In this document: one piece after another, positions 1-61,522 of the stretch
Numbering within the stretch: position 1 is the first letter of the stretch
Layout of the letters: each line of letters opens with the position of its first letter
Source of the DNA: Dipylidium caninum
Lineage: Eukaryota; Platyhelminthes; Cestoda; Cyclophyllidea; Dipylidiidae
DNA: 64,000 bases
Direction of reading: 5' to 3'
Assembly (NCBI GenBank): GCA_017562135.1
Contig: QEYB01000562.1
Coordinates: forward strand, 1 to 64,000
The notes under the pieces: model-generated
Databases searched by the model: none
The model's input: the letters and a program-made list of their open reading frames with translations, nothing else
Told to the model about the DNA's origin: nothing
Translations under genes and position numbers: made by a program

Positions 1-329
1 TCATCCCGTGGTTTCCTGCTATTCCTGGCTGCGTGAGCGCGCAACAGCCCATTTTCTCGACACCTCCTTGGGGCGTATGATAACCAACGCGATGAATTGC
101 GCGTCAAATCTTTTCGTCACCAGCGCTTTTGTTCGTGCCACCTTCAACCGCTTACTTCCGCATAAGGCAAAAAGGATTTGTGTCGATTTTGGTAAACTTG
201 CTCACAACACTCCGTCTACGGTGACACAAGTCAGTTCCTTTCTCGCCTTCCTACTGGCATCTTAAGCTATGTCAAGCCGATATTATGTTGCTTTACATTT
301 GTCAGCATTCATGGGACACCCGTGATTAT

Positions 330-840
330 GTGAGGCAGCATCTGCCAAACTTTAGTCTTATAGACCTCTATTCTCCCCCAGACGCCCACCATCCTGCATA
401 GTTCTCTGGGGCACCGCCGCCGTCTCTGATTCCCTGTTGAGCTCTCGGAGGATTGTTGAGGGCGGCGTCCTCGTGACCAGTGGCACAGCGCCGCCAACGG
501 AGGGACACCTGTAATCACGGAAACTCGGGGCGCTGCTTGCCGTTTATATAATGGTGAACGCACACGTCCGGCATAAACTACTGCTGACCAAAGCAAATTA
601 CGACGGAACGACCGGGATGAGAGCCACAACAAATGTGTGGCAGTTATGCCCGTCGATGTTCTTCGGCAGTTCCGGCAGAACATTCACCAAATAAGACTGG
701 CCTCCTCTACGCTGTGAAACAGCGAGGCGTCACCTGGTAGGCACTGAAGAGCCGCCCATACCCCCACGTGGACTGAGCTACGAGATCCGGATCGGAATGC
801 CGAGTTGACTGGCGCCCAGTTTCAATTGCTCTCTCTATCT
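330..840 (+). pseudogene. Corrupted copy of UBASH3-like last exon
   Basis: This stretch matches the intact exon at about 43,390-43,736. Shared strings include the segment giving the cytosine-rich run before the conserved Thr-His-Gly and the one encoding the Leu-Leu-Tyr-Ala-Val strand. Extra bases are scattered through it, so no frame stays open and the Thr-His-Gly motif cannot be read. The loss is not by large deletion: most bases of the good copy are present in order, with additional bases between them. I read it as noisy sequence or a dead copy, not a working gene. Confidence 0.7.
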
Positions 841-3800
841 TGTAATTTCGGCTTTTTCCTCGGTTAGGACCTCTCCACTATGCCTCACCGCGTCGGTCTC
901 CGTGAGAAACTCGTGCAACTTCGGCCCTAGCGCCTTTCTCCGTACACACAAATGCCGTCTTTTCACACCATACACACAGGACATTAAAAAACAGTCGACC
1001 CGTGACTGGGGTATCGCTTTTAACATTGCCACACCCCTTGCCCACTCCCACGACTCGTCTTTGCTTCTATTCTACTGTCCAATAGCGATCAGTCTGGCCA
1101 TCCGTCTGCCAAACCCTTTATGAAACAGGTCTGACCTATATTCTCGGGAACATGGCGCCAGGAATCGGTTGTACCCAAAGATTTGGGTCCCGTTCACTTT
1201 CAATATGTCCCCTTAACATTTTGGCCATGTAAGGTAGCCTGAAAGCTGAAAAGAGGCGTCCCCTGTCAGAAGTCTGTGCTGTACTTTCTCCTTCACGTCT
1301 TGATACCCATTAAACCGGTGTGATGATTGGGGTAATGCCTGCCGTAGAACTCCTCTAGCGTTGCACTCGGGTGACTGTGTACTACATGGTAACGCAGACC
1401 CTGGGGACCGGAGAACTCCGTAGACTGCCAATGCAGTCGGTTGTCTTTCAGACCACCTTGGGCCAGGTGTGGCTGCCTTGAAAACGGGCACCTCGCTGAA
1501 TAACCTTTGTCTTTCTCTCCGCGCTTCAAGAGATAAAGGGGCGGGGGATGGGTCGCGACAGGTCACTGTGGGGATAGGTGGGGCGAGGGCAGTGGGGAGT
1601 GGATTAGTGAAGGCTGAGATGAACGGCGCACCCTTTGAGTGGATGCGATTATGACTTTCTATTTCCACGCACAGTTGTTTGCGCCCTTGCCGCTTTGTCT
1701 CGGAATTTGTTGTATTAGCGCGAGTACTGCTGCTCCTAACCAGATCTAAGAATGTTTCCCTTCGGTCTAAACACGCAACACTGTCAATGAACAACATATC
1801 CACCGAAATCAAGGTCTTTGTTTACAGGACGTGTATGAGCCAGTGCTACTGAAAACCGATTGTCGAGCTCTTGGGGTCATTACGCTCGATATTTCCTAGG
1901 GGCGGGAAGACATTCCCCACGCGCCAGTAACTTCAACTCTCCCGATTGGGTGATCTCGTTTGAGCTCTGCGAGCTGCTCAGCGTTCAGGCGTGGTTGTGA
2001 CGGTATGGCAAGCACTTCGGAGGGGAACCTGTGTGTGACAAGCTCAACGTGAAGCGCATCAGCAAAAACACAAGCCCCTTGGTTCCATAGGTCTGCTGGA
2101 TGATCAAGGTCATCCTATTCTTAAATTGTGGAACGTATGCAATCGGCGGGGCCCGAAAAATTGTTGGGTAACGCACGTGTAAAGAATCTGGGGCAGTGAG
2201 TAGGACGACGACCATGGTGAGATTAATGAGGAGGCCGCACGCGAAACTTGCCCGGCGCGCAATACAATGTCAAAGTCAAGACAATTGGGTTATACCGAAA
2301 CACGTAGTTTTCGGTGTATTTTGGATCGAAGACTCCTCTGTTTCCAATTGTCGACTAAAATTGCCGAAGATAGAATGTCACGAGGCCGGCTTGTACGGCC
2401 GCCCTTACATGGCCGCTTGAAATTCTGCTACAAAAACAATGAACGCGATCCTTTGAGGTGTCTAGCCCCGGCTACCCCCAGCACCCCGGATTGATATGTC
2501 AATCGCCGTTTCAGTGCTTTGGCGCCCCTGGTCCAACCAATCTCCCCTAGCAGCCCACCCGAAAATGCGGGTGAGGGGGGAAGGTCGGAGACAATTCGCG
2601 CGCGAATGTTAATAACAGCGGATAGCACCCGCCGCTTTCCCTTTGACTTTATGGTGGGGACATTTATACCCGCCAATGGGCTCCGGCCTTCTGCGTGCAA
2701 TTGATCAAAATCACACGACCCAAGCGTAAGCGCTAGGCTAAATTGTCCCGTATCGTTGTGAGGAATGCTGGGGTCGTGTATATCCGCGAAGACTGTGCCG
2801 TAATTGAGGGCAAGAAAGCCAGTTAAGAGGTAGTAGCCAGCTTGCACCCGACGCATTTAACCTGATTCGAACATACCAGCATAAACGGCCTACCGACACG
2901 ACAGAAATGCCATCATTTCTCGCTGCGAGCTCCCACCCCCAACTAACCCTTGAATGGAAATAAGCTTCGGTTTTTCACCTTTAGAAGTCATGAATTGCCC
3001 GCCCCGGTAGCCCCCTCCTGCCCGATTCCGGCTCGACAACGACATAACTATGATAGTCGCTGGTGCGGTGAAGCTGAAATTCTTTCACATCCGTCCGGGG
3101 CTTATTAGCCAGTATTGTAGTAGAATTTATATACCCGGTATCAAAAAGTGCATCAAAAGAAATAGCCCTCCGTCACTCCCAGTCTCTAAAGCTTTCAACA
3201 CGCGTGAACCAAGAAATAAGACAGACTAATGCGACCTTTGTGCCGCGTCACTGGTAAACCAGTAGAACACATTGCGCCCCGCCGCGACCTTATACGCCCA
3301 ACGAGCGACTCTACACGACATCTGTCTCTGTTAATACTCCCTTGTGATTAAGTGTAATCAACCAACCACCAAGGGTCACACACAGGACGAGTCCTTCTAA
3401 TCTTGTGTCAAACCAAATATTCCTGCCTAACTATTATTTTATTATGTACTATAGAGCTCAACCGTGGAGAGGATCGCGAGCGGTTCGAATATAATGAGTC
3501 TCTCTGTGCCGTAGCTGTGGTCGAACCAAATTAAATTGAGAATATATAGACAAGGGATAGTGAAGTTAAGACGAGAGACGAGAAGGTTAATTTGGCCATT
3601 GAGTGGGATTTCTAGAAACACTCAAGTTATCCTGAGTGAAGTGAGAATCGTAGTAAGCAAACGAATATACCAAATTTACACAGCTTGAATGATATCAATC
3701 CGGATAATGGAATCTAACTAGCGCAAGATATATCATCCCCAGTTGAGCTGCTAAGGCAGCGCGAGCTCCGATGCAAGCAGCACTAACTTACCGTTGAAGG

Positions 3801-5700
3801 AAACAGGAGTCCTTGGTTTACCACTGGCAATCGTTGTTGAATCCACAACAAAGCCTTAAGGCTATTCCGTACGGACCGATGGTCTTTATCGATCACCAGA
3901 TCTGTCTCTGTATACATCACGACACCAGTGTGCTCTGAAATGCACATAACCTACCACAACGCCCACCAACTTTCTTTGTGGCTGCGATCCATCATTTACT
4001 TAATCTAATGTTACGCAAAGCGTCTCGAAGCCGCTCTATTCACATTAGCAGTCCATGGTACATGACCTGACCGCACAAGAAGAATCAAACACAGTTACTT
4101 CAGGTGTTCTGTGTACCCCTTTACCCCGCGGCGCGCTAACCAACTGTTCAGACCTCCACAACTGCCGGCCGCTGTTTTCTTGAGCTTAGACAGGCGCGAG
4201 CGAGGGACGACTGACGCAAATGATAGGCGATAATTTGTCCTCTAGTCTACCTGTCGTGTTAGCTTGCACAAGAACCCTAACTGCACAATTGTCTCAGCCA
4301 TTGAAATTGTTAGAAATGTATGTTCGAACGGCTATTGGTATTGACTACTTAACGAATCAAGTCATCCTCATTCCTTTCCATCCACTAAACATACATTTTA
4401 GTCGGTTGCATCAGTACGGTGAAGTATTGGTACCTATAACTTAGGCTGTGACCGCACCGAGCTGTACGATAGGGAGCTGATCCTCAACCGTCTTCTACCG
4501 GGGACGGTCTGGACGGGAAGCAACAAATACCGCGCCAGAGTCTCGTATAATATTATTAGAACACTCAATACCGTGCGAGCCAACCTTATCAGCATCTCAT
4601 GAGCAGCACCATAGTTGTTCCTCTTGCCTCGCCTGACTAGAGGAGCACTCGTCGACACTAAACAACGATTACCAGAATCGCTACCGGGACGTGCGCGGTG
4701 CTCACCCGACTGCGATATTCGTGCGTCAGCATCGCGAGTCCTAAATCAACGCATATTAGTCGCCGAAATAAAGAACTACCAACATACACAAAATGGTTTT
4801 GCGCCTGCCTGCGTATGTCGCTGCGGTGTGTTGGTCCAGAGCGCCGTTCGGCCGACTGGAAGTAGATTGAACCCAGAGGTCTGCCGCCAAGCATGCCCCC
4901 GTCCGGAAGTATTACGGAGATACGGCGCATCCGCACAGTAGATGTACCCGACAGCGGAGAGATTCAAGCACTGATTACGCTCTGTGTAGAAATTGCAGAC
5001 GTGATCCGGCACAGTGAACGCCGACAGCCTCTGTCAGACCTCTAACTGCGTGGTGGTGCCCAAGAGGAGGCTCACAAGGACGAGTGCAGGAGTATAGTTC
5101 ACTCGTGCGGTGGCAAAGTCACAAGTATCCAACAACGGAGCTTACTTTATGAATCCCCTCGTCGTCCAGAGATAGAACGTAAGGCGGCGATCCGAAGAGG
5201 TTGATGTCACCAGATTGCAGCAGAGAGCAGGAGTACGTAACAGGCATGCCTACGTGTGTGTGATACTTAATTCAACCCACACGAACTACCAATCTAGGCG
5301 GTGCCTAGAGAAGACTCTTCATAGGCGTGAGGTGTGAGTATTCATCACTTCGCCCGCCATCACTATACTGTGAAGAGCATGAGCTGAGGAATCAACGCTT
5401 AAATCATTTTAACACTAGGACTTATAAAGTAACATCCACCAAACGATCAAAGCGGTAGATGATTATAAAGCCCTTTAAAGAACCTGAATGGTAACCAGTT
5501 CATCGCCAAGAGTATTGCCGTGTATGGTTAATAACTTGTCGCGCCGGTTTCTGGCTGAGTGAGCGAAGCTTTAGTACAGGAAGACACAGAAAGTCTTCCC
5601 TTGGCGAGCTTCAAGTTCCTCGACTTATCCTCGCGGGTAACTCTAGTGAGTCAGCAGTTCTTCTAGTCGGGTGGCGCGATGGGAGAGATGGGCCGCGATA
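841..5700. other. Inflated copy of the UBASH3-flippase intergenic DNA
   Basis: This region parallels 43.74-46.7 kb but is about 1.6 times longer. Short islands match (for example around 1391, 1550 and 2328), separated by stretches where extra bases break the alignment. I see no supported gene, tRNA or mobile element. The short open frames are chance frames in randomised sequence. Confidence 0.65.
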
Positions 5701-8700
5701 AAGAAGAGAGAGGGTTGCGGTTGGGTGCTGGAAGACCTACAGGACACATCGTCACCCATGCGGACTATCCTAGCTGATGTGATCTGCAGATTCTGCTCTA
5801 ACGCACCGAGCACGTCCACAAGTTGCTAAGCACATTAAGTGTAAGGAACCCACAAGAACTATGAGGCGGTTGAGCGTGGAGCTGTTCCGTTGGCCGGCTC
5901 CAAATCTCTGGGCGAGCGAGAGCTACCAGCAGATTTTGCCCAACTGCCAGCTTCCGTCTTTTTATCGGTAGTCCTCTACTACTTTCCCTGCCCGGGAGAA
6001 TAGAGGCTTTTGACCAAAGAACTGATGTGCCCAGTGGCCGTCTCCCGTCCGCGGCTAGTGTAGATACGTTGCCCTTGGGCGCGACGAGCATCGGGGATTG
6101 GCAGCCAAACACGTCGGATGGATGGCGTGTCCACCCGCCAGTTAGGATGCATCCCGAGGATATAAAAACGTTTCCGTTTGGCAGCCATAAAGTGCACTGT
6201 AGAGGGCAAATGAAAATAAGAGGCGAGGTTTTTTCCCCTGGTGTGGAAAGAGAGTGGTGTAGTGGATGTGTTCGGAGGAGGGGGAATGTGTAAGGAAAGC
6301 GAGAGAAGCTGGTGCGAGTGGTTGTATGGGAACTTGTGCGAGATGTGTGGCGGTTGTCGGTGCGGAGGAAGCCTAGTTGCGAAGAGTGTTAAGTGCGAGT
6401 TCGAGTGTGGTGATTGGGTGACTCCGGACTCAGCCATGGAACCTGCTGCGTTTTCCTGTCACTCGACATCAACCAATATCCCTGGTGGTCTGCTAACCTT
6501 ATAAATAAATATCCATTGATCTTGTAATTCGCTAGTCTCTTATCTTATGTGGTGAGTTGTTGACGTCCCGATATTATCTATAATATCATGTTCTGGTAGA
6601 GTATCACAGGTGTGAGAGAAATCAATATGCAGAGAGTATGATGAGTCTCTCTCCACCATATTCAAAATTGTCCTAGGAGATTTCGTAAAAACTGTACACA
6701 AATGACAGTTATACTGCCAATATAACTATTACTCAAAAATCGGTAGGCCGATTTCGCCCTGCGATGGTCTAGAGTATTTCGTGGACTGGCGTCGATGTCG
6801 AACTGGCCAGACCTTGGACGGGGGGACCAATTCTAAAACTAGCCGTGAATGTGTTTCCGCTTTATGAACTGTTCAGCAGTGTAAGAACCTCCACCAATTC
6901 ACTCCTGAATGACAATTATGAGCTACCGCCGTCCATAAGAATAACCGTGCCAGCTGGCCGCTTCCGATACTCTCGTTAATGCTTATCTTCGCTGCAGTTA
7001 TTCAGTTTTCGCACATTTTGTTAATTTTCTGATACTCGTATTTCTTCAACTTCCGGATAACTTGGCACAGTACGTTTCATTCCCAATGTCCACCTGGTCC
7101 ATGCATTTCATGGATTTTCAAGATTATCTGACCTTACCCATCCAAGTCTGGTTACAATCTACGCCATGAATACTCAACGCCCTTATTCATCAAAGGCGAA
7201 ACAATCACCCTTACTGTAGCAGTCTGGCTTTCCTCAGTTACACAATTTTCCTACCCATACCTAAAAGTGCATTTTATAATTTCTCACAGCGCTATCTAAC
7301 TCCCATTCCAGCTGATCGCAAGGGATAGTCATTCAGATCTAAAGCTCAGCATCTTTTGTGGCTGACTTTACTGCAACTTTTTCACCAAAGTCAGATCTTC
7401 TGTTTTACCGAACGCCAACAACTTCTCATTTTACCATCGTCCCTCTTTTTAACAAAGCTGGGACGTTTGTCAGTCCTTAATAGCGACCGCCCCTGTTAAA
7501 CTCAACTTTGAAGTAATGAGTTCTGCTATAACTTCAAAGAATCAGGGATTTATTTTCTCCTTTTCTAGTTGGTGCGACTTTACCTATTCTATTTTTCATT
7601 AATGTTTATAAGCTCTTCTGTCTATATCTTTTAATGCTCAATCTCTCACAATTTTTCTACCTTGCAATTTATCTTTTCAATCTAGTTATCAACTCCAGAG
7701 GCACGCTCTTTCCCTGGGCCTCCGTTGAAGTGAGAAGCCCTCCCATCCAGAATCGTACCGCTTTCAAGTAGAATGTACAGACAATATGTCAAATTTCTCC
7801 CATTCCCGTCGCTCCATTTTTTACTAGACTGATATAGGACATCTTCGTACTTTGTGGACTTCCATAATAACTAGTACGACCATATTTTAATTTACCCAAA
7901 GTGTCCATACGTCGCAAAGTGTCTTGTTGTTTGTAGATGCGCGTTCGCCAGCCACGTGCGGACAAATGATCTTCATATCACGTCTTCCCTACCCCACTTC
8001 TGTTAAAAGAATGTTTAACTTGAGTAGGGGAAACCTTCCATTAATTACGGTATGACTGGCACCTTATACTGCCTCATTTGTTGCCCCAGCCACTTATCTA
8101 TCATGAGCAGGACATCCTCCACCACTTTGTGATAAGAGTCTCCAAGCAAGTGATCAAGATAAAATAGAGTGTACACATTCCTCCTGGAATACAGAGAATA
8201 TCATATCCATGTCCAATATTTTTTAAAATAATAATTCTATAAGCCACCACCCAACCCGACCCTAACAACCCCGTATCAAAGAACAAGAGAAATCCTACTT
8301 CCTTCCTGGTGCGGAAGCTCAATTACATCCTTCCGCGCATTAACGACCACATTGACTCAGAGCTAGAAGTGAGAGAACCAATATATATAAACCTGCTTAA
8401 TTGCTTGCTCAGCTGCGCAAGTGGCTCATGGTCATTTATGCAGTACCGGTGACTAACCCTTCCTCTATCCAGTCTCGCTCCTTTTCTTTATTGACACCAA
8501 TCTCCTGGTGTTGAAGCCTGGTTTGTGAGACGAAAATAAAGCTGTTATTGATATGAGACTCAGATAAAATTTTAGCTGCTTCGACGGGTTTAGTGGTAGG
8601 TGAGATTTTCATTTTTCACGGCTTAACCTCAAAACATTGTTTACATTGATCTTCCTGTCCCCCCATGCCCTACCAAACCGGTTATGTTCTGTATGAAACT

Positions 8701-11700
8701 ATTATGTTACTAATATTCTCCAAAGTGCCTAATTATCTCAGTAGGCGCACTATCGATTCACCAACTTGAGAGGTTTGAAAAAAGTAAAAGTGGAAAGAAA
8801 TGAAAGTGCCCATCCTTTGTGGATGGCCTTAGTCAATGTAACTCCCCTCATTGTACCCAAGAAATGCGCATTCTCAAAAGAGTGGCGAGAGAACTAAGAT
8901 GTATCATACTATAATGTATTATTGCTTCCAAGGTAAGCGTTACTCGACCTCTTTTCCTACCATTCGAAATGTATGTGACCACCAAGAATATTGCATGCAA
9001 CATCAGGCTTTTCTGGCCCCGATTTGAATACCCCCCGTTTGCCCCAGCGGCCCCTAAATTTGTGCTAAAAATCTATTTACAAATCAAAAAAAATTGGCCC
9101 TCCAACCAAAGTAGAAAGCGCAAAATATCATACAGAGAGAGAAATATGCAGGTTATCCTGAGTAATTTGGTCAACGCGCCTAGCATTATAGCAACTTCCT
9201 ATGCCGCTTGACGGTTAAGCCAATAACTGAAACGACACCTCTGAAAAGATCTTCTTTTTTATTGAGGTAGCCTATTTCGATGCTCAAAGTTGCGCATTAC
9301 AATCACCAAGAGCCCCAGGATAGTCCCATTAAGCCCGCCACCAATGATAGTTCTTCACTTTTCGGTGGGGAAGCCTCATTTGCCCGACACTGTTGTGCCG
9401 TCTTGTTAAACTTTCTGCCTACCCTCAGACTGCGGCCCCAAATCGATGTCATTGATTCTTAAAACCCTTAATATCTGAGCCACTGTCCAGCTGTTGTGGT
9501 CCTACGTGCGAAAAATCTCGCAGAAGGCCAGTATATCATCACAAAAAACAAACAAACATACCTCCGATTCCGTAAAGCACAAGAAGTCATCACAAGTACC
9601 AACAAAAATCCATCTAGAGAGAGAGGCCGCTCTGAAATAAAGGACATTATCTGTGTGTTCGTCTTAAATCCCTCGTCATCTTGTGCCATCAACCAAGAAG
9701 CCCTCCCGGTTAGGCCTGAATCCCTTTCTTGCTTTTATTCCATATGCCTTGAGCTATATTTTTATAACCAATCATAAATTCGATGACTTGAAGTCCCACC
9801 ATATCAATAATCCTGTCATAGTAAATACAAACAAGTAATCACTATACTCTAAAGGCTAGGCAGGTATTAAAAAAACTGATTAAGCTCAGAAAGCTGCAAC
9901 AACTATTTATTACGCCTTCTTCCGTAAGCCGGTTACTTTTAAAAAACTAAATGCTACCCTTCCCCCTGCCCCCCTTCTACTCCCTCTCAATACAATCCTT
10001 TCCAAGGCCTGTCGGCAACTTTGAGACAAAAATCTTGCGCATCCTTGTTTCCTTGATGGTCCCTGCCAAGGTGGGCAGAAAAAATTCAAAGATATCCATA
10101 TGCTTCGGCACGCTGCTAGGAGATACCCGGGAGCCATTAAATAAAATATAAGCCTCTCCAGCTCCTCAAATTTTTGGGAACCGTTCGTCGTCATAAAATA
10201 CATACAAAGCATTTAGCCTTGAATAATTTTACTTCTCGACAAACTGTGTTAGAGATCCAACTCTGTTCGATCGCAACCGAAGAAGCTGCGAGGGCGACAA
10301 ACGAACACTGCAACGCCCCCAGCATATTTGCTTTCCCCATATAATATTATAATAAATTATCTCGTAAATGCCACCTGTCAAAAAATTTGTCATGGTTGCC
10401 TACGACCAATGTGTTCTGAGCGTCATACTCACCAAATTATTGCACTGTCAATCTGTGAGTTCCTATTCAAAAGGCACGTCGTAATCCCCCCCCTTACCAA
10501 GGTTGTATACTAAGTCCGAAGGAAATGCAGGAAAAAATCAAAGTGTAGTAAAAAGTTTTACAAAAATTTTTTTCATGCCCAATCGGCCCGATCTGGTAAT
10601 TTCTAAACACGAAACCACAAAAACCTTTATTGTAGTTATATAAAGTGAAAATAATAAGAGTACTGCTTTCAATATTCCCGAGGATTTGGGTTCAAATATA
10701 AATTGAGAATAAGGACGATTTACAATATGGAAGTATGAGAAATAGTAACTGGTCTAACATTAGAGAGACTCATGAAATTCGGACAACTACTACAGATATC
10801 GATGTATTCAAGAAAGTGAACAACGTTGCCTCTCTCATGAATGCGCACAATGCACTACTGGGTATATTGACCAGAAGGTAAAAAATGATGAATATAACAC
10901 CACTACACACGAATACACTTACAAAATCACTCTCGTGGAATCATATAACATTCACCACATTATGCCTCTATAGATGTGATAATTTTAAAATTTATGGAGA
11001 AATGACAGGACTTGATGCACGAGCGAGTACGTGAGAGCGATGAAAGGACATTGCGCAAAATTGACGCATGATGTAGAAAGAACAGCCGGCCGACACTTCG
11101 ATCTACTAACTATATGCTCTCCGCTACACGTGATCGTACAGACGAATTATGCACTCTGAATTGAGTACGAAGTGTGGGCTACGTGATTTAGTATTCTGTC
11201 AATAGATACTGGGCGTAATCCACGTTGCGCCCACCGTCTCCGCTCCCCGCCAGTTTTTCACGCCCTGCTTTTCCCCCGATGGAATCCGCAGCCCTTTGTA
11301 AATTTTACTATTCAATATTAAGACTTTATCCTTCCGATGACCCGATTTCTGGAACCTCCCCCGACGACTCCAGTACTTGTCTCCCATGTCCTCATGTGGT
11401 AGATGCGTGTGCACCCTCCTTGTTGAGCCATCCCCATTTTATAACATATTTTGGAAACGAATTGGAAATGTACATTATAACGACAACAAAAAATGTTGCT
11501 TACGAGACTACGTAGGGTCATTACTATACACAGGAAGCCATTGTTACCTGTTTCCGTTTTACGGTTACCTCTGTGTAGAAAGGGATCCTCCAAGTCGCGA
11601 TGAATAGGAGCCCCTTAAGAGGACAGTGAGGGACTTTAGCTGCTAAATAAAAACCAAAACCAGTCTATCTCTCTTAGGCAGTGTCAACAAACAAACACAC

Positions 11701-14700
11701 GCTCTGCCAACAGAGCCAGTGAATTCACTTCCCTTCGTCTCCACCTCATTTGTCCAATGCACAACGGCACAAATTTATGCTCGGTAACACACGCCACATC
11801 TTTACCCCTAGTTATGGGGCTTGACATGCCACCACTTGATGGAGGACGATTCGGCCCCCGAGATTGCGCGTGCCACCGCCCACCCGCAAGGTCGTCATGG
11901 CAGGTGGAGAAGCAGGTGGAGATCAGGTCAGCAAATTCTCCATCACGTGTCAGGGACTTCTTCTTTGTCTTACCACTGCAACACGTCGGTGTTCTCGTCT
12001 CTGCCGAACAAAAATGCTTCCCAAGCTCCGGTTAGTTCCCCCAGTCTCTACTAGCGAACATTGCTAATGTTCCACGACGAGATTAGCCCAACAAAATTAG
12101 CATTTTTAGTTTTTGTTCCCAACCCTTAATAAGAGCTAAATCGCCCAGATGAGTCGTTTTAGACCAGCCCATGAAGTGAGCAGTATCCTAAAGAGGGCAC
12201 AAAGTACAAATATGCCGCTCTCTCACTCACAATACTCAACTTTAGCCCTTTGGTCTGCACGCAAAGTCTCCAGCAGTAATTAGACTGACGGCAATAAACC
12301 AAACCACCATTATGATAAAAAGAGACAGAAGCCCGCTTCGCTGCGACTCTATAACCAGCGTTTTAGCCCGCTTAGATGGCGTTGTTAAGAAACATCAATT
12401 GATATTCATTTCAGCAACTTGCGGTTTGTAGATATCTTTTAGTCTTTCCCCGAAATTTTCCTTTACTAATTAGACTTTGTGGGCAATAAGTTGTAAGAGT
12501 TTATATATTGATAAAGAACTTGTTCCCGTCTCAAAAATAATACTTTTCAGTGCTGAAAATGTGTAACAAAACTTCCCAAACGGCGAATATATATCTCCGT
12601 ACCCTCAAAACCGCCAAAAGGAAACATTTGAGCGGGCTGTCGTCGACGCTAACCGATTATCCACACGACACCTAACATCAATAGTGAATTATAACTTGGG
12701 GTGTGGGACGAAATTCCTCAATTCCTATTCTCTCACAATTACTTGATATCAGTGTGACATCTTTAGTACCTCGGTTTCGTCGCTCGGCATGACTATAATG
12801 CTTCTTCGAGCTGTCGGCGAGGAGAGCGGAGGTGATTCCCGGGAGTAGAGTTCATGACATGTCTGCTCTCAACGGACAGAGCCACACCTCTATTCGATTC
12901 CTAGAGTGCATCCTCTCTGAAGTATCAGAGACAAGATCGTCATAGGTAGCATACAGGTAGTCTCTGTTGCCTGCGTCAGCGCAAGAGCATGATCCACGCC
13001 CCTGAGAGGCACGATAGTGTAGGCATTCGTTCAAAATTTTCCAGGACCCATCGATCAACACTGAGTTGCGGGAACACGTATCAAAATATCTACTATATGT
13101 CCGCCGAGAACACCGTTGCAAATAGCTTTTCCGAACAGAGAGAGAGCCCTAGAAGGCTTTCCAGAGTTAAGAATCTCTCTAAATAGAAAGTTGGACCCAA
13201 ATTACAATGCCGACACACTGGTCCAGTATTACGGAGCGTGTTGGAAGACCGCGCGAAGACCACCATCCATTCCACATATCTCGAGAACCGCAGTGGGGAT
13301 AAAATCGACATACCCGTCACGGTTTCCCTAATCACCTAGTTCTTAAACTGAAAATCGGAAACCTAAATTGGTGTAAAAGTGAATGTAGAAGAAAATTATA
13401 ATAAGATTCTTTTTAGAAACGCACGAGGCCCAAGTTCCAATCCCATTCCTCCCTCGGACCGAGGAGACGGTGGGTGAAGGCTCCGCCTGCTCGGAGCAAC
13501 TGTTAAGCGGTCCGCAGGGCTGTCAATTAGACAATCGAGGACAACGAGTGCTGCGTCACCACTACAGATAATCAACCAACGTGCGATCATGCACAAAGCG
13601 CGAAAGTCCAAGTCTTATGTCGCATGCTAAATGAATGATGCACGTTGCACTAGCGAGGGAAGTTAATTGCTATAATCCGCTTGTATACGTACTCACTGCG
13701 AGGAAGCTGGGAAGATTGTGGCCAGGAGAACCCACAGATCGACCAGATCGAGCAAAAAATTACGAGTTCCTCCAGTTCTGCAACCACGACGCCCCCCTAT
13801 GTTCTCATTTTGACCATAAAAGTGAGGAGGACACGGCGGCGCTAATCTTGCGTGTGAATGCGGATAGCGCTAGAAGCATCGCGAAGAGCCAAGTATTCTC
13901 CACTATACGTGTTGGCAGTTTCTCAACGTTCCAGTTCATTCAAATAACTTGAGCAGCTTAATCCAACGAAAATCGTGTTAACGATCCTTCCACCTAATAC
14001 CTAAATCACAGAGGTTCGAATCCTATCGGAGAAAGCACTCTTGCCTAAATCGAGATTTACGAATCCGAGAGTCCGGGATTTGGAGTCCGACCTCATATAG
14101 TCGAAGAATGGTTGGATAATACCACACAGTAGAGATTACCGCAAATTTAACGAAGAGTTTTGTATGATGTAATTCAACACTACTTCAATTGCAACACCGC
14201 GGATCCGGACTTTGTCATTATCTGCAGCTCCCGTAATAGACTTTAGCTGGACTATTTCCTCAGTATTCTCTGCTCCGTCGTGCACTGATTGTGAAGGTCA
14301 AATTTCCTTGTTGTACCCCAGGGCCAAATCACACACGTACACGACAATTAGGAGAATGTGCTCTTGCGTCAGATTCCTGCTGTGATTAGTGTGCTGGTTG
14401 ATGCCTGGATCATATTACCTAAATTCACTTGAATCGTTAACCTCTGACCCTATATTCAACCTTTAGAGTCGATAGGCTGGTTTATACGACCACCAAAAGT
14501 AGAGGTGCTCAACGGTTCTCCCCTCTCGACGGAACGGCAAAAACGCGATGTATCCATCATACATCTCGTCACCCGATAACCCGACCACGAATTCGGTTCT
14601 CTACCTGAAGGGTGCTTGATTCTCTGTGCGATCTGTGCCTCGACTTAGAGCTCCTCAAAAAGGTAATCTTCATCCCGTTATTTCCGCTGCATTAGTGCGG

Positions 14701-15339
14701 AGAGTTCGACGGTGTTCCTGTTTCTCAGCTTACTCGTAAAATGGAAACTTTTGCGATCAAACTTTTCTTCCAATTGTAGGCGGATTTGTCGCCCGTCGAT
14801 CTTCACACATTCTTGAAATCAATGTACTTACTTGTCACGATCGACCGAATGTGCTAATTTTTTCCTCTTTTTTCTTGTCACTGTAATAAGACATTGTGGC
14901 GTGTGTGCAACCAAACCACGCCTCTCGGTCGTGTTAACCTCCACTGACGCAAACAGTTCAAGGTGACCTCAACAGCTAATCTATCTGAACACCCATCTAA
15001 ATTGACAATTACCTTTGCATTGGATACTTCTTTTTTTTTCTCTTTCCAATATCCCTTTCCCACTTGCGGCTGATAGATTTTTAACGTTGTCGATACGCAG
15101 TTCCACCCCCGAATGATTACAAAATAGCGAACGCCTAAAACTGAAAAGCAGCAGGAGAGGTGAGATGGACATGATACTACCACCGTTTGCTACCAAGGGA
15201 GGAATATCATCGCAAGGCATACTTCGTCCAAACTTTAATTGAATATTTACATCCGTACGCGTTATCGTTGACTGGTCTTATATTAGCATGGACCGATGCT
15301 TGACTTAGTTTCCGTCCATTCCATTTGTCCGCTTTTTAG
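5701..15339 (+). pseudogene. Unreadable left copy of flippase, 5' two thirds
   Basis: This parallels 46.7-53.26 kb, the first eleven exons of the intact flippase. Recognisable islands are the end of exon 1 near 6,000-6,190, the DGET exon near 6,780-6,870, the membrane-segment exon near 9,480-9,700, the start of the phosphorylation exon near 10,530-10,700 and the nucleotide-binding-domain exons near 12,830-14,560. The DKTGT phosphorylation motif that should follow the island at 10,680 is not present in any frame. Every exon has several frameshifts, nearly all insertions. Nothing here could encode a P-type ATPase. Confidence 0.75.
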
Positions 15340-15677
15340 GCGAGACATTCAAACAGCCAAGCCACAGGAGGAGTATCGAAGAGTACGCACGGTTTTCTTG
15401 TTTTGAGAACTGTTGGTAGAGTGATGCCAAATCTGGGTCAGTTTTTTACACTTTATGTATTTCTTAAATCCCTCTATATTGTTAGGTTCTTATGTAGGCT
15501 AACTTCGTGTTTTTTTGGCCTCGTCATGAGATGTCCTTGTCGCCCTTCCAGTCATCTCGGAGGTGGAGTATCGATCGTGGTCGTCGGCATGGTCGGGCAG
15601 CTGAACTGGACTATCAAACAGGCCGACAAGTTTGAAGTCAGTTGATGGAGGACAATTGAGTCAACTTAGAACTCTAG
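15340..15677 (+). pseudogene. Flippase left copy: exons 12-13, frameshifted
   Basis: These are counterparts of 53,260-53,342 and 53,457-53,583. This is where the insertion excess of the left arm falls away: the distance between the two exons is almost the same in both arms. Single-base changes remain. For example, the acceptor AG-GTC of the second exon has lost one G (15,549-15,552), and bases are inserted before the Gly-Leu-Arg-Thr-Leu segment. It is not translatable as it stands. Confidence 0.7.
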
Positions 15678-16199
15678 GTAAATTTACCACTTCACCTCTT
15701 TATTTTTCATCTCGCATTTATTTTCCATTCGTGTTGGGGAGAATTCGGATTATGACTTAAAGTGCCTCAACCACCTCATGATGGTGGATCGGGGAGTGTT
15801 CACAGCTTAGATAAAGCCCTATTCGCTTGCTTCTCTCGCCGACAGCATTAACGCTGCCTGTCGTATGATGTCGTCAAACTTTATGGAATCGTCATTGGAC
15901 ATTGCGGGCTAACCCGTGGAATATTTCTTGTTCGTGATCTCCCACTTCGTCAAATATCCTCTTCGTGGATTCGGTCTCCAAGTTTTTGCCTTGGACTTAA
16001 GACAAAATAGGGATATTTCACTCCTCCCACCCTTGGAGGGTAACCTGAATCAGCCTGCTTCCCCAGATGAACGTCGATCGTCTATTTGGAATATAAGGGA
16101 AGGCTAAATCACCTCGTCTGCGTATGTCTACTGTTGTAAACCGGCTAGAGTAGAATACATTCTAATTTGTTGATTTAAATTACTGGAGTACTGTGTTAG

Positions 16200-16842
16200 G
16201 TGCTACAGGCATAGAGGACAGTTCTGCAAAGAGGGGTGCCCGAGACTACTCAGCACTCGTATGCTGCATGAAGGTATGGGTGCAACCGGAGACAAACAGG
16301 AGACCGCCATTAGTATTGCGTATGCTGCAAAACTTCATTTTTAGCGAGGAACAGAAAGTCTTTGTCCTCTCCACCGCCACTGTGGTTAAGTCTCAGTTAA
16401 TCAGTCCTACCAACCTTCTCTCCGATGGACTTAGCCGCCTTTTGTGTGTAGGACGAGACGAAGCGCCAGTTGGCAGAACCTTTTTGGTCGACTTGTTACC
16501 CGCTTCGAATGTAACAAGCTCAACGTCTAGCAGCCTAACTTCAGTTTCTCCACCTCGGACTTTGAATCGTTCTATGTCACTTCCTAAGAACTCCCACTCT
16601 CTGACGGAGATACAGAGATGGAAGGGGAAAGTGATGCTATTCCTCGATCATTACTTCCCCCACTGTCTCCATAATTGACCAATGAAATACCATTGGACGC
16701 GCCGCAGGCGGGTGTTGCTCTCGTCCTCGACTCCATTTGCTTGCCATTTGTCTTAGAAGATGCAGTTAAAAAGACCTTGTATCAAATTGGCGCGTGTCTG
16801 TTCCAGTGTTATCTTTGCTGTCGGGTGACACCATGCCAGAAG
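16200..16842 (+). pseudogene. Flippase left copy: exons 14-15, frameshifted
   Basis: These are counterparts of the exon carrying the TGD hinge motif (54,097-54,281) and the following exon (54,350-54,733). The first has small indels around the Asp-Ser-Leu-Gln segment and two bases missing ahead of the Thr-Gly-Asp motif. Its donor reads GTTAAG instead of GTAAGT. The second has extra bases near its start and end. The matching is collinear and close to full length, so the origin is clear. Confidence 0.75.
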
Positions 16843-17479: not shown

Positions 17480-17736
17480 CCTCGATAGTGGAGTTGGTAA
17501 AGCCACGAGTTAGGAGTTCAAACATTAGCGATTGGTGATGCGCAAACGACGTGAATATGATCCAACGCGCCTGATGTCGGCGTAGGCATAAGTGGTCAGG
17601 AGGAATGCAGGCGTCAATGGCCTCCGACTTCGCTGTCACCCAATTCTGCTTCCTCAAACGCCTCCTCCTCGTGCACGGACATTGGTGCTATGAGAAGTTA
17701 GCGCGTATGGCCCTCTACATGTTCTACAAGGACGCG
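17480..17736 (+). pseudogene. Flippase left copy: GDGAND exon, frameshifted
   Basis: This is the counterpart of 55,394-55,651. The hinge motif that binds magnesium in P-type ATPases is interrupted by loss of one G (GATGGCGCAAAC in the intact copy reads GATGCGCAAAC near 17,540). There are further single-base indels at the Ala-Asp-Val-Gly and Gln-Glu-Gly segments, and the donor G is missing at 17,736. Length is almost unchanged, in contrast to the exons left of 15.4 kb. Confidence 0.8.
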
Positions 17737-18158
17737 TACGTCAATAACACGATCTTTCTCATTAGGTAATGCCTTACACGGCGTTATTGTCATGGGTGAA
17801 GAGGGTGGACGTACACCTCGTTAGGGTGGAGACTACTTAGCTTGCGTGATTGTAATTATTAAGCTTCACAATTCCACATCTTCATTAGAAAGTTGACGTT
17901 TATTCGTAGTGTAAAAGGTATGTTGCTGAGGTGTAAGACTTCCCTTAAGTAACACAGCCATCCCCGTCTCTAGTGTCGTTCCATTCAGATTGAGGGTACT
18001 TTGAAAGGTAAAGTAATTATTTATTACCACTTGCTTTTTCCTACATTCGTTATTCTCGCTTTGAATACCACATTTTTAAGGTTCATTCGAGCTCTTTGAG
18101 GCGCTTTGTTAAAGCAAATAACCTGATGGCGGATTCTTTTGTCATCTCTGTCCTCCAG

Positions 18159-18360
18159 GTGTACATATTTTCTCTCTTTTGGTTCCAATTCTTTAACGGC
18201 TTCTCGGGCAGTGCGCACATTAATCAACTCGCCCAAGTTCTTTTCAACATTTCACTCACCAGCATACCTCCTTTTGTGTTGGGGGCTTTCGACAACCCCC
18301 TCGATGATCGAACGCTTATGGCTAACCCCCAAACTGTACCGCAATGGCAGGGATTCTATG
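18159..18360 (+). pseudogene. Flippase left copy: TM5-6 region exon, +1 frameshift
   Basis: This is the counterpart of 56,069-56,269 (201 bases); here it is 202 bases. An extra C in a C-run after the Leu-Met-Ala codons (about 18,325-18,330) shifts the frame, and one base is altered nearby. The first 160 bases are essentially identical to the intact copy, which makes this look like an isolated homopolymer error or a very recent mutation. Confidence 0.8.
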
Positions 18361-18847
18361 GTAAGTTGAGACAAAATATTTGACCATTTATTTGTGGAAA
18401 TCGCTATTTTGTGGGTGAATAGAGAGGGAATATTTCGACAGTAGAGAGACACTCTTTGCCTCTTGACAACTCTGATTCTTCGTCAGACAAAGCCACTCCA
18501 CTGGGTGCACTGTGACCTCGTTTGTCACGCTCTTGTCTAAGAGCGTGAGTCCATTGTTTGCGTTCGAGTATACGCGCGGTCTCCTACCGTCTTTGGCCAG
18601 AATCTCTGCAATCTCGATTACTTTGATTCAAACTGCCCTTCCCTGGTCGAGTTTTGCTAAATCGGTCTAACTTACTGGCAGTCAACCTTACCACCTTCGC
18701 ACCTATGGCGATGTGGAGAAAGAGAGCGTGGCATGAGCCAAAGAATTCACCACGAGCGCTGAAAGGACTGTTCGACTGTCGGAACTGTCACTCCATCCTT
18801 GGATTATTCTGATTCCCTCTCACCTTACCCGCTTTCCTTAATTCCAG

Positions 18848-19034
18848 ACGTACAGGTCATGGCACTTCTGGCTCAACACATTGGACGCGATATGGCAATC
18901 TCTGGTGATCTTCTTCATTCCTTGCCTCGTCTTCGCCGATACAACGCCAGTATGGACGAACTCGGTACCACGTGCATGAATGCCCTCGTATTCACCGCCA
19001 TCGTGCATATCGCTCTGGAGACTAAGTCCTTTCG
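18848..19034 (+). pseudogene. Flippase left copy: Thr-Tyr-Arg-Ser exon, frameshifted
   Basis: This is the counterpart of 56,795-56,980. One C is missing near 18,941 (CGATAC-AACG versus CGATACCAACG) and one T is gained near 19,028, so the middle of the exon is out of frame. The splice acceptor CCAG and the donor GTAAGG are both preserved. Confidence 0.8.
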
Positions 19035-19157
19035 TAAGGTTCCTCCTGTTAGATGTTGGAAGGGCATGGGATTTCAGGAATGTGCTTTTGCCTCTCTCAG
19101 AGTAGGCAGGTAATTTGGCAGCTCCTCGGTATGGCCAGCTAGAGCGATTCCCGTCCT

Positions 19158-19381
19158 TTCGGTAGGGACGGCGTGTTAGATGTTCCACCCACCGGACAGA
19201 TAGTTTAGCCTTCTTCCTCCCCTCCCTTGACCTATTGCCAGTAGGACGAGGGCTCGCTGTGATGGAAGTAAATTCATTTTGCGTGTACGTATAACATCAT
19301 GCGGTGGCCTTCTTTTGCCCACATTTTCATCCACATGCAGGCGGTTTGAAGAGCGCCTTCATCCGCGACGGTGTTTCTCTT
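19158..19381. other. ~220-base insertion unique to the left flippase copy
   Basis: The intact copy runs from CGTCCT straight to CTCCACAATG in this intron (about 57,098-57,110). The left copy has about 220 extra bases between the same two strings. The insert contains no open frame, no obvious terminal inverted repeat and no poly-A tail. I cannot assign it to a transposon family. Confidence 0.6.
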
Positions 19382-19612
19382 CTCCACAATGTCTCGGTAG
19401 AGTAAAAAACTGATAGATGTTAATTTGTTGCTCACTTGTGACGACTTCATTCGGCCCCGACTACGAGATATTCCTATAATCGAATCAGGGTGGGTTGTAC
19501 GACCATTAAATCGGTTTTAATGGTCACGAAGGAGTTGGTGGACTTCGGCTTGCCGAGGAGAATATGACACATCGAGATTATTAATCCTCCTTTACCACAT
19601 TTCCCCCAACAG

Positions 19613-19803
19613 ACTGTCATCCACTTTGTCGTGTACATTGGCAGTTATGTCATACTCTGGTTCTGCTTCACTATGGCCTACAATATCCTCGGTGTGACAC
19701 AGCTCGCTCCAGATCCACCCTATTACGTTATCTTCGTCCTCATGCGTGATCCTCGCTTCTGGCTGTGCATGCTTGTAACCAGTACAACTGCCCTCCTTCC
19801 CAG
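19613..19803 (+). pseudogene. Flippase left copy: intact C-terminal TM exon
   Basis: This 191-base exon matches 57,339-57,529 base for base as far as I can see, with the same acceptor (CCCAACAG) and donor (GTTTGC). It encodes the last hydrophobic pair of the flippase, ending Leu-Leu-Pro-Arg. It is the best preserved exon of the left copy, but neighbouring exons are frameshifted, so the locus as a whole is not functional. Confidence 0.85.
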
Positions 19804-19883
19804 GTTTGCATTTTTCCCTCTATTTTCATTCTCCTTTGCCTTCGTCAAAACAGTCTTTACTCGCACGTTACTTCTTTCTTTAG

Positions 19884-23513: not shown

Positions 23514-23554
23514 GTGGGAATGTAAGCGCCTCTCTTTTCTTTCCACATGCGCAG

Positions 23555-42200: not shown

Positions 42201-43736
42201 AGAGAGAGCGAGAGAGGGTAGCGTAGGAGGAAGGGGGACGGGAAGGCTACAGCGCCAAATTTGTCAGGAATTGGTTCAACTTCTCGGCTGACTGATTGGT
42301 CGGCCAGCTCGTCTGTATCAACGTGCGTTTGTACGCGCATTCAGTCTCTTTCCTAACTCCGAAATTTGGCCGAGTGCCCGATGCCACTTCTTCTCTGCTC
42401 CTGTCAAAGGCATGTCGTTGGAAAGCAAGTCAAACTTTAAATGACCCCCCGGTCCAGTGATTTTTAGGCACGCAAAAGATTGACACTTCGCCCCTTAATT
42501 CCCTTCTACCCGTTGTAACACGTTTGACGAGCTAATTTTCCTCACCCGTACATCGTTTTGTTTGCATTGGTTCGGCTTGCAAACATATTGACGACGTTAG
42601 ACGTAATAAGATGGGAACTAACTTCGGGTGTTCTTCTCGCCTCGGGCCGGACATCTGCATAACCGGGAGCCTGGCAGACAACGACGTATGCTCGAACTTC
42701 GTCGCTCTCCGTGCGAATTGCAGGGAGAACCGCATTCCGTGATACCTCGTATGTCTGTTAATTAAAACATAGAACCGGAGGAAGAAGTTGCCCTATTTCC
42801 GTCTAGGTTAAACACTTTAGCGAATAGTTGTTTCTGTGGCGCTGAAATAAAGTCGAAACTCTTCTTTCATCCCCAAGGTGGCGAATGGGAGGGGAATGAG
42901 GCTGGGGGCATCACATTTCCCATGGCGGATTCATTCTATTCTTAGGGCTACGCACGGACTAGGCTGTCGTAAGTACCCCTCGCCCTATCAGGGGACGTCT
43001 CGTCTTCTCCCCATCATCATCCGTGTTTCCTGCTTTCCTGGCTGGTTGAGCGCGCAAAGCCATTTTCTGACACCTCTTGGGGCGTATGTAACCACGCGAG
43101 CGCGCAAATCTTTCGTCACCAGCGTTTTTTCGTGCCACCTTCACCGCTATTCCCATAAGCAAAGTATTTGTGTCGTTTGTAAACTTCCACACCGTCTACG
43201 TGACACAAGTCATTTTTCTCGCCTCCTACTGGCATCTTTAAGCTGCAGCCAATATTATGTTGCTTTACATTTGTCACATTCATGGGACACCGTGAAATGT
43301 TGGCAGCATCTCCAAAACCTTTAGTCTTATTTCGACTTATTCTCCCCCAGACGCCACCATCCTCATAGTCGGGCACGCCGCGTCTCTGGATTCCTGTACT
43401 CGAGGATTGTTGAGGCGGCGTCCTCGTGACAGTGGCAACAGCGCCGCCAACGGAGGCAACTGTAATCACGGAAACGGGGCCGCTGCTGCCAGTATAAATG
43501 GCGTCGGCACTGCTACTGCTACCAACAATTCGAACGGCGACGGGATGGGCCACATTGAGGAGTTGCACCGTCGATGTTCTTCCGTGCCCTATTGTGGCCT
43601 CCTCTACGCTGTGGAAGGCGGGCGTCGGTGGCACCTGGAAGAGCCGCCCATACCCCCACTGACGCATGGTCGGAATGCCGAGTTTGACTGGCGCCAGTTT
43701 AATGGCTCTTCTATCTGTAATTTCGGCGTTCGGTAG
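39234..43736 (+). CDS. UBASH3/TULA-like histidine phosphatase domain protein, partial
   Basis: UBASH3 (Sts/TULA) proteins carry UBA, SH3 and a C-terminal phosphoglycerate-mutase-fold phosphatase domain. Two exons are clear. 39,479-39,713 (acceptor TTCTGCAG, donor GTAAGT) reads Val-Arg-Ile-Glu-Pro then Leu-Phe-Glu-Trp, with the following helix, as in that domain. About 43,390-43,736 reads Tyr-Cys-Gly-Leu-Leu, Pro-Pro-Ile-Pro-Pro-Leu-Thr-His-Gly and Phe-Asp-Trp-Arg, ending in TAG. A possible exon from 39,234 (acceptor TTTCTAG) and one near 42,020-42,180 containing Ser-His-Gly-Phe-Ile-Glu-Ala could supply other domain strands; both are tentative. The last exon has an unusual Asn/Gly/Ala-rich insert just before the final strands. 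The UBA and SH3 parts and the Arg-His-Gly catalytic motif are not found, so the 5' end is either in unrecognised exons or missing. Cell role cannot be inferred further. Confidence 0.6.
40985..41013. repeat. Microsatellite (GGAA)n
   Basis: Purine-rich tetranucleotide repeat in an intron of the UBASH3-like gene. Nothing further can be said. Confidence 0.8.
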
Positions 43737-59180: not shown

Positions 59181-59182
59181 GA

Positions 59183-61230
59183 GGCATACACACAACCTTG
59201 CAACGCAGTCGTCTCGGGACAGGTTGGTAGAAGGGCTCCTGGTTCCACATACCCCTTCCCCGTTCACGCGTTACTTTGCGAAAAAATACCAACAGGTTGT
59301 CCCAGTTCTCGTGCCTCAACACGAAGCGGCCTCAAACTCTTCAAATTTATCGCCAGCTTCTGCTTCAGCGTGCTGGACCTACAGTAAACAACACGACAGC
59401 CTCAATTGTAAGCCCCACCACCCCAGGACACTAACACAACCGCCATCAAGGCTCCTTTACGTACAACCGACAGAAGCTCTCGATATACGTATTCAACGTC
59501 TTAAATCGTTCACTCGGCGGCACCGCTGCACAACGGATAACATCTCTGGCGATCACACCGGGGTCTTCTCTCGAATTTTGGAAGGGCATAACATGCAATA
59601 ATTCCATGGGAATGAAACTCGTCCTTGTCCTTCTTGGTCTACAATGTTCAGAGAAACATCATCCACTTAACGGCCTGTTCAGGCACCAACCGGCAATACA
59701 ACCGCATCATCTCGAGGGCTCCTCTCTCTCAGTCAACCAACCGACTACACCCCTCCAACCCCAAACTCCACCTTACAGTCAGTCGAGAGACAGTTGCACA
59801 TCAGCCCCTCTCACCACCCAACCCAACCCAACTCAACCCATCCTCTCATCTCCCCTCCACAGCAGCTCCACCCCGCGAATGACACCTCACCTGCTCACCT
59901 CCGACCACTCGACCACCAAAGCGTCTGCACCTTCTAACCACCTCTCATTCACATCAGGCAAGCAACCAGGCCACAGGCCGCACCACTCGTCGTAAGAACT
60001 CTCAACAAGCCTATCTCAATCTCCACCTACACTACTTGGCCATCAGGTGCGCACACACAACCAAACACACTCACCTTAATGCACGGTAGTTCCGGATATT
60101 GCAGCGTTATGCTATACTTCTCCTTAAAGTATTGGGCGATTGTTTGCTTCGTGTCGCCCACCGTCTCCGCATCAGCCCTCTTGGAGACAAGCCATGCACC
60201 ACAAAACTCTTCTTATACGGCTTCCCTGTAGACATCATACAAATGTACACACCGGTCAACATCATGAACCGCAGTCAGCAGTTACAAAACTTAGCACTGC
60301 CACCTTCAGCTGTCTGCCAAACCACAACAGACATACCATATGATGCCAGCACACACTGGGTTGACAGTCGAAAGCATAATCGGGGAGGGGGGGGGAAAGG
60401 GGGGCCGAACAAACAAATTCCACTCACACCGTGTCATGCACCAGCGCAAAGTACTCACCCTCGTGGCTATAATGGCTGGCTTCCACACGCAATGACAATA
60501 TCTGCGCCTTCATGCGATCCCACGTCGACTTGTCATACATCGTGTCGCGGAATTTCTCGTACAGAATTTCGGCCAGATTGCCGGGTGGAAAGAAAGCCCG
60601 GTATACCTGAGGAAACAAACATCACATGAGCGCCAGCCTCCCTTGACGCGTCCGAGCAAACAAAGCATCACGCCGCATCGCCACACTCACCAGGTCAACA
60701 TTCAGTCTACACTTCCATTGTGGCCGAACACTTAATGAAAATCCTCTATGTATGTGGAAGAGGCCATTGGTTTTGCTTTGCCATGGTGTGGTTGAATAAA
60801 TCCCGATTTGAAAAAGACCGAGGGCCCCTGTCCGATAATTTGCTTAAACGCGTTATCCACCATGTTGATGCAATCCTGCGGTATCTCCTTTATTGTTCTC
60901 CGGCTCTCAATATACTCCTTTATCCGATGAGCCGAGACGCTGGACACCCTTTTAATGTTGTATTCCAGGACCAAATCATCTTTCCCCTGAGGATCTGTCA
61001 CCGCGACCGTGTCACTCGTTTCCGTTTTACCACCGAACAAGGGCGACAGTGAGTACACTATCTTTCCACCATCGTGAAAAAACACCGTCGCCCAGTCTAA
61101 AAAGACACATTACAACAGCGCATAGGCAAAAAATTCACACCTATGCATCCTTCACAAGAGTGAATCAACCGCTCTAGGGGGTTCTCTGCACCGCCGTCGA
61201 CACACAAATTACGCCAACTACGTCTTACTA
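59183..61230 (-). pseudogene. Truncated Argonaute copy C
   Basis: Minus-strand exon equivalents are 61,096-60,691, 60,606-60,459, 60,225-60,075, 59,638-59,461 and about 59,378-59,183. As in copy A, the N-terminal RGG part and the MID and PIWI domains are absent. Private indels include an extra A near 59,616, a missing C near 60,176 in the PAZ exon and a missing C near 60,803. The N-domain exon is damaged at its start (Asp-Val-Phe-His region, about 61,078-61,092). It lies directly downstream of the flippase and on the opposite strand. Confidence 0.8.
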
Positions 61231-61286
61231 CACCATGAAAAACATGTAGAAATATCAGTTGTTATCTTCATTTTGCCCTTGCGCAG

Positions 61287-61522
61287 GAGCAATTGAAGCG
61301 AGGGAAGTTGAGACACGCAGACTACGGACACAGAACTCGAAACCGAACGAAAGTTGGTGGCACACCAGCGCGATTGGGACAGTCATGTAGAGGCAGCGAA
61401 GCAGAAACTGGTGGCAGACTTCGACGCCTGGAGGAGCAGTCTCACGCCAACTACTCGATTCAACCCACTTAATGTTAATGCGCTTTGCACGAACCAGCCG
61501 CAACTGCCTCGTCGGTGTTATA
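61287..61522 (+). pseudogene. Orphan last exon of the coiled-coil gene, copy C
   Basis: Corresponds to 29,734-29,970 but with several substitutions and at least two short deletions. One is at the start (Gln-Met-Glu region) and one is a missing G near 61,326. The TAA stop has become TAT, so the frame runs on for another 40 or more codons. The left junction sequence differs from copy A. This copy has drifted by substitution, which suggests a real paralogue. Confidence 0.75.

Follow-up and report, generated by a model that had tools for sequence, protein, structure and literature searches.

Two interleaved genomic loci at an inflated contig end of the tapeworm Dipylidium caninum, probably two templates read in one well

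In PacBio wells that hold more than one active polymerase, the run begins with a merged signal, according to the excerpts of PMC7052699 on which we rely. For an ordinary PacBio subread, the figures that we take from a PacBio-Nanopore comparison (PMC5553090) are 5.9% insertion, 3.0% deletion, and 5.3% mismatch. Here we describe a contig end of Dipylidium caninum that departs from the ordinary subread and resembles the merged signal. The window (the whole stretch of DNA that was analysed, 64,000 bases) comprises bases 1-64,000 of contig QEYB01000562.1, here termed C8 (67,646 bases in total), in an assembly of 106,277,105 bases and 920 contigs (GCA_017562135.1). It contains two copies of a locus that encodes a P4-ATPase, and the first ~15.5 kb of the left copy (left arm) are 1.5-fold longer than their counterpart in the right copy (right arm). 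We found that the surplus bases are largely another genomic locus, present in order, and that they probably reflect two templates read in one well. An earlier note on this DNA had proposed that uncorrected, long-read-like sequence lies at a contig end; the position agrees with this, as the window begins at base 1 of C8 and the left arm is therefore the contig end.

Where neither copy is inflated, the spacing of the direct repeat in C8 is ~37.7 kb (19,382-29,886 matches 57,106-67,615, of which 57,106-64,000 lies in the window), and the partner of left base 1 is base 43,017. A global alignment of the two arms, with a tally of mismatches and of insertions and deletions (indels), confirmed the inflation left of ~15.5 kb and reproduced all 11 length ratios between anchors that had been reported earlier (1.29, 1.30, 1.72, 1.68, 1.42, 1.54, 1.47, 1.64, 1.30, 1.03, and 0.99). 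For left 1-15,340 it comprises 9,508 matches, 403 mismatches, 254 deletion events (333 bases), and 1,983 insertion events (5,429 bases, or 53 inserted bases per 100). In bins of 500 right-arm bases, all 21 bins as far as left 15,611 have a length ratio of 1.16-2.15, with a peak of inflation in left 2,560-5,371, and 10 of the 11 bins past it have a ratio of 0.94-1.05; the remaining bin (1.44) contains 225 extra left-arm bases. The sharp edge, previously placed near 15.4 kb, was found at left ~15,495, where insertion events fall from 11-20 to ~3 per 100 bases and then stay at 2-8 until ~16.3 kb. Retention of the right-arm bases in order was 94.7% in left 3,001-6,000 versus 80.8-81.1% in five shuffles, and thus exceeds chance, although chance alone already gives a high figure. 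Beyond the artefact zone, the left copy has ~225 surplus bases relative to the right copy at 19,157-19,382, with a longest single insertion of 156 bases.

A third copy of the right-arm locus forms the end of contig C903 (396,440-407,618) and is 87-90% identical to C8 38,868-50,170. With this copy as the outgroup, 1,395 insertion events fall in the left arm versus 111 in C903 (7,141 sites); the insertions are therefore the left arm's own. In 66 of these 1,395 cases, a C903 insertion is no more than one base away, and the right arm, as far as C903 extends along it (to 50,170), shows no inflation relative to C903. Of 162 clean sites that distinguish the right arm from C903, the left arm matches the right arm at 154, C903 at two, and neither at six; therefore, one component of the left arm copies the right-arm lineage.

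The other component was recognized in genome searches. In addition to C8 and C903, left 5,001-15,340 matched four places in the 1.69-Mb contig C683, all on its minus strand and collinear, with expectation values (E) from 3.8e-34 to 8.0e-5, and left 1-5,000 matched a fifth place upstream on the same diagonal (E 1.5e-16). Conversely, C683:445,200-445,799 matched only itself and C8:3,098-3,240. A sensitive comparison with C683:440,000-449,999 returned 13 minus-strand rows at E <= 10: nine at E <= 0.003 are collinear, running from left 2,163 to 14,186 while C683 runs from 445,770 to 442,489 (Table 1), a tenth (E 0.54) lies on the same line, and the other three lie off it. The opposite strand gave two rows, both with E 4.3. 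Exact runs shared with C683 reach 34 bases, followed by 23, 21, 21, and 19, whereas the right-arm segment 43,017-53,500 has no exact match longer than 14 bases to the C683 minus strand. When the surplus bases alone were compared with this strand, the score was 236.5 (best stretch left 7,896-14,197) versus 37-67.5 for eight controls. The earlier statement that most bases of the shorter copy are present in order with short extras between them overlooks the nine blocks, 1,198 left-arm bases in all, that follow mainly C683.

Between the blocks, joint three-sequence alignment placed the C683 piece above 12 of 12 control pieces in all eight intervals (z 1.5-6.9), some of these wins being by a few points only. 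In a second round C683 exceeded all 20 self-shuffles in eight of nine intervals and all 20 other minus-strand C683 pieces in seven of nine, the exceptions being 3,280-8,321 (equalled by two of the 20 other pieces) and 13,950-14,088 (by one of 20 in each set); for left 1-2,162 the C683 length used (400 bases) was the best of four scanned, so that this interval is not independent. These results supersede an early joint alignment with loose scoring, in which C683 stood only modestly above four controls (40,218 versus 38,709-39,131) and the unexplained noise was as large as theirs. An unanchored 10-kb search met the expected C683 diagonal, within ~60 bases, in six of nine chunks (701-1,400, 1,401-2,162, 9,312-10,195, 10,329-11,000, 11,566-12,300, and 12,301-13,000), and in four of these six C683 was the best of seven sequences. 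Against 40 controls, C683 was clear in 701-1,400 and 1,401-2,162 (none as high in either), weak in 7,001-8,321 (one as high), and not separable in 5,701-7,000 (seven as high); as expected, it was not separable in the clean stretch 15,700-16,400 either (15 as high). Overall, the C683 minus strand can be traced in order from ~446,080 down to 442,489 between left ~701 and 14,186, so that two unrelated templates run collinearly within one sequence, with 3,280-5,700 as a part where the second is not traceable.

The lengths of the two templates nearly add up to that of the left arm. Left 701-14,186 spans 13,486 bases, over which the right arm progresses by 8,760 bases and C683, if continuous, by 3,592, giving 12,352; the ~9% remainder is about what a raw insertion load would add. 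Since the lengths nearly add up, the two sequences look riffled, with each base used about once. The figures are consistent with additivity plus ~9% noise, although base sharing offset by extra noise might give the same sum. In three simulations of a riffle of two noisy templates with independent pauses, the ratio was 1.42-1.46 and the mean insertion 2.5-3.0, with 11-18 C683 blocks and 17-24 right-arm blocks; the corresponding values for the real left arm are 1.50, 2.74, 9, and 16.

We consider it likely that the riffle comes from an uncorrected PacBio-type read produced in a well with two active polymerases; the platform, the second polymerase, the pauses, and the single uncorrected read are what we infer from the interleaving, the additive lengths, and the contig-end position. 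Left 1 to ~15.5 kb would then be one unpolished long read at the contig end, over most of which two polymerases were active in one well, one copying an array unit like the right arm (~10.2 kb) and the other the C683 minus strand (~3.6 kb). Base calls of both templates would have been written in the order of time, yielding a riffle with ordinary raw insertion noise on top, and a pause of one polymerase would leave an uninterrupted run of the other template. The edge would mark the point where the signal of the second template ceased and was followed by sequence that had been polished or built from several reads, with inflation stopping there. Among the papers listed in a literature search for interleaved two-read contigs, we judged none to be on point.

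Several results weigh against this explanation. The inflation extends from contig base 1 to the edge near 15.5 kb, and the C683 signal only from ~701 to 14,186; surplus in 1-700, 3,280-5,700, and 14,187-15,490 is not accounted for by C683. In inflated sequence, C683 was not separable from the 40 controls in 1-700 (12 as high), 3,280-4,500 (13), 4,501-5,700 (20), and 14,851-15,490 (21), and it was weak in 14,187-14,850 (one as high). Two on-diagonal chunks contained sequences that outscored it (one in 701-1,400 and four in 11,566-12,300). No continuation of C683 right of 14,186 was found in 21 forced settings, none of which exceeded z 1.1 (one had no variance), and no turn-around onto its plus strand was seen there (29 and 13 of 40 controls as high). 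C683 advances by only 859 bases over left 3,280-8,321, and neither there nor in 14,187-15,600 was a third locus detected, with only C8 and C903 matched at E <= 1. In the inflated parts poor in C683, the second molecule may carry sequence that has no counterpart in the C683 contig, or noise may be heavier. The simulations are also imperfect: a riffle without pauses gave no C683 blocks and 2-4 right-arm blocks (versus 9 and 16), the pauses were set by hand so that the fit shows sufficiency only, and riffles with pauses have fewer insertion events (1,594-1,769 versus 1,983) and keep more right-arm bases (0.953-0.956 versus 0.928) than the real arm.

Two loci would also be mixed if, at a poorly covered end, the assembler had placed reads from the array and from C683 on top of each other, for example via a chimeric read, and had written bases of both into the consensus. 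Contig ends here are indeed poorly corrected, and racon output is described as error-rich where reads are few, in what the gapless paper says of it (PMC10166144). However, an alignment that maximises matches would share many bases, whereas the template lengths nearly add up, and 12 simulated merges of the array and C683 (three scorings, two noise levels, union or longest branch) inflated the sequence only 1.00-1.12-fold and left 0-6 C683 blocks, versus 1.50-fold and nine in the real arm. On the results of these simple pairwise merges, made with no real assembler, we reject merging of two reads by alignment as a sufficient cause and regard a consensus artefact as unlikely overall. A single raw read with a very high random insertion error, close to the earlier note's idea that insertion-prone noise was the main source of the surplus, also agrees with the contig-end position, with the indel-rich state of the three other ends that we compared, and with inserted bases that lack local duplication, and random-insertion simulations give a similar ratio and kept fraction. 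Yet the noise-only simulation, with an inflation of 1.46, produced none of the nine ordered C683 blocks, and the insertion load lies far above that of a typical subread (PMC5553090, in the figures cited above). The C683 genome matches and the collinear blocks rule out random insertion error as the main cause, and we give this explanation very little credence for the arm as a whole; random insertion noise is likely as a minor part, and it may hold for 1-700, 3,280-5,700, and 14,187-15,490.

On the other hand, the sequence could be taken at face value, as the outcome of a natural chromosomal process, either massive short insertion or template switching that recurred between C683 and the array; nothing beyond the sequence as written speaks for it. 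The P4-ATPase exons are informative here. The N-terminal domain (PF16209) was found in the right arm and in C903 and was not found in the left arm, whose counterpart holds 40 insertion events; likewise, of the two arms only the right yielded PF13246, and its left counterpart holds 18. In contrast, PF16212 gave four hits in the right arm and three in the left arm, and the left hits all lie right of the edge in open frames. The insertion load in the two inflated exons resembles that of their flanks (238 versus 249 and 290 per kb; 143 versus 183 and 160 per kb), yet right of the edge this gene has four exons with 0, 1, 1, and 0 insertion events (0-5 per kb). Left and right of the edge alike, ~4% of bases mismatch the right arm, and the changes are tied to the contig end and to a second locus. 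We know of no repair process that would fit two-locus interleaving at a contig terminus. The left-arm stretch therefore shows neither selection nor decay of a chromosomal feature, the inflation is not a real biological feature, and a natural process appears all but incredible. The earlier note's view that the surplus is not natural decay is borne out by the similar load in exons and flanks and by the interleaving at the contig end, and the new mutational process that it had entertained is not needed. Two templates read in one well remain our preferred explanation.

Local sources of the surplus were also considered and rejected. The surplus bases resemble the sequence around them no more closely than sequence farther away (mean z -0.11, 25 of 26 windows), nor is reverse-complement stutter a source (mean z -0.14, 24 of 26 windows); windows without variance were dropped from both tests. 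A single inserted base equals its neighbour in 29.6% of cases in left 2,501-6,000 and in 32.3% in 6,001-15,340; random-insertion simulations gave 27.8-30.8% (two) and 32.7% (a third). Left 1-2,500 has a higher value, 42.9% (66 of 154), than the ~30% further right.

The other contig ends of this region offer a comparison within the same assembly. Of the first four 1-kb bins at the right end of C8, three have fewer than 15 indels of 1-3 bases per kb and one (58,106-59,105) has 29; the density climbs to ~110-120 per kb over the final 1.5 kb of the comparison, while mismatch is only ~1% between 62.1 and 66.1 kb. With contig C422 as a second reference, the rise recurs as far as 66.3 kb. C422 over its last 2 kb and C903 over its last kb are also indel-rich, each against one reference only. 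Thus, all four ends compared (both of C8 and the right ends of C422 and C903) look poorly corrected. Length ratios are 0.90-1.11 in all bins of this right-end comparison, and among the four the 1.5-fold inflation occurs only at the left end of C8.

Table 1. Coordinates of features in the window; C683(-) denotes the minus strand of contig C683
Positions	Strand	Feature	Evidence or remark
1..15490	+	Artefactual stretch: right-arm copy (43,017-53,400) interleaved with C683(-) and read-like noise	Inflation, edge, second locus
2163..2259	+	C683(-) block 1, C683 445,770-445,694	E 1.8e-5
3098..3279	+	C683(-) block 2, C683 445,490-445,341; right arm advances 36 bases	E 4.6e-30
8322..8430	+	C683(-) block 3, C683 444,481-444,388	E 1.3e-12
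8846..8921	+	C683(-) block 4, C683 444,302-444,239; exact runs of 21 and 17	E 5.8e-14
9199..9311	+	C683(-) block 5, C683 444,184-444,102	E 8.3e-7
10196..10328	+	C683(-) block 6, C683 443,829-443,732	E 8.3e-7
11470..11565	+	C683(-) block 7, C683 443,390-443,304; exact run of 34	E 8.9e-20
13656..13949	+	C683(-) block 8, C683 442,851-442,611; exact runs of 23 and 21	E 1.2e-50
14089..14186	+	C683(-) block 9, last detected, C683 442,566-442,489	E 0.003
15490..16300	+	Transition zone	2-8 insertion events per 100 bases, then 0-3
17617..19813	+	Left-copy P4-ATPase C-terminal exons, open, right of edge	PF16212 at 17,617-17,760, 18,159-18,335, and 19,610-19,813
43017..53400	+	Right-arm counterpart of the left arm	Arm alignment; C903 comparison
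46801..46968	+	P4-ATPase N-terminal exon (PF16209), open here and in C903	Pfam
52590..52715	+	P4-ATPase exon (PF13246), open in the right arm	Pfam
61106..64000	+	Noisy right contig end begins (runs to 67,646)	Indels of 1-3 bases rising endward, length ratio ~1

The direct repeat in C8 contains the P4-ATPase gene, a weak Argonaute-N (ArgoN) match, and SEC62. SEC62 is encoded at 25,521-26,186 on the minus strand (Pfam Sec62, E 1.4e-40); its best named matches are from taeniid tapeworms, with 73-77% identity over ~60% of the query, and the match in Taenia crassiceps has 57% identity over 88% of the query. The ArgoN match (22,890-23,711, minus strand) is under the Pfam cut-off. Pfam scans of 14 open reading frames (ORFs) in the window identified Sec62 in one, the sub-threshold ArgoN in another, and nothing in 12; a Rfam search of the window and a Protein Data Bank (PDB) search with one window ORF returned no matches. 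A tandem array of 30-base units at 37,638-37,861 is open in one frame (37,415-38,080, plus strand), for which no Pfam match was found. Identity within the direct repeat is uneven, with one mismatch in left 22,001-23,000 versus 7% in the adjoining bins; a second aligner and binning gave 1.1-1.4% there.

The end of C422 (308,469-341,768) carries the same repeat units as C8, partly inverted (310,846-318,858 versus 338,749-330,776, ~90%); C8, C903, and C422 thus all break within one duplicated region. A rearranged partial copy of the P4-ATPase gene is present at C577:124,533-124,950, where two pieces, ~99% and ~94% identical, lie ~10 bases apart; their window counterparts (56,840-56,981 and 57,639-57,905) are ~660 bases apart.

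We lean towards the view, with less assurance than for this one contig end, that merged reads from two polymerases survive in public long-read assemblies as contig ends and form an error class that can be recognized and separated by its ordered riffle and additive length. If so, such ends can be mistaken for gene copies in decay or for unusual patterns of mutation, and the left end of C8 would be a case where the assembly by itself suffices to name both templates. Here, neither the new mutational process that had been claimed nor the decayed gene copy, which is false, needs further consideration. The artefact can be tested for concretely at a contig end by aligning the surplus to the rest of the assembly and checking whether two template lengths sum, and contig ends like this one should be masked before pseudogenes, duplications, or indel spectra are counted in assemblies of this sort.

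How does this contig end compare with the known kinds of sequencing error? It shares poor correction with the right ends of C8, C422, and C903, toward which indels climb; the difference is that none of them is inflated like the left arm. Like raw subread noise in the published figures used here (PMC5553090), it leans to insertion, and its deletion (3.3%) and mismatch (4.1%, which includes true divergence between the copies) are similar, whereas its inserted bases are ~9 times more common and largely another genomic locus. It also resembles PacBio multiple loading, two polymerases in one zero-mode waveguide, in that two templates are read at once and the result cannot be aligned as one sequence. 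However, in the relevant excerpts of PMC7052699 such reads are unalignable raw yield, whereas here, on what is presumably the same platform, they seem to have entered an assembled contig in which both templates can be named.

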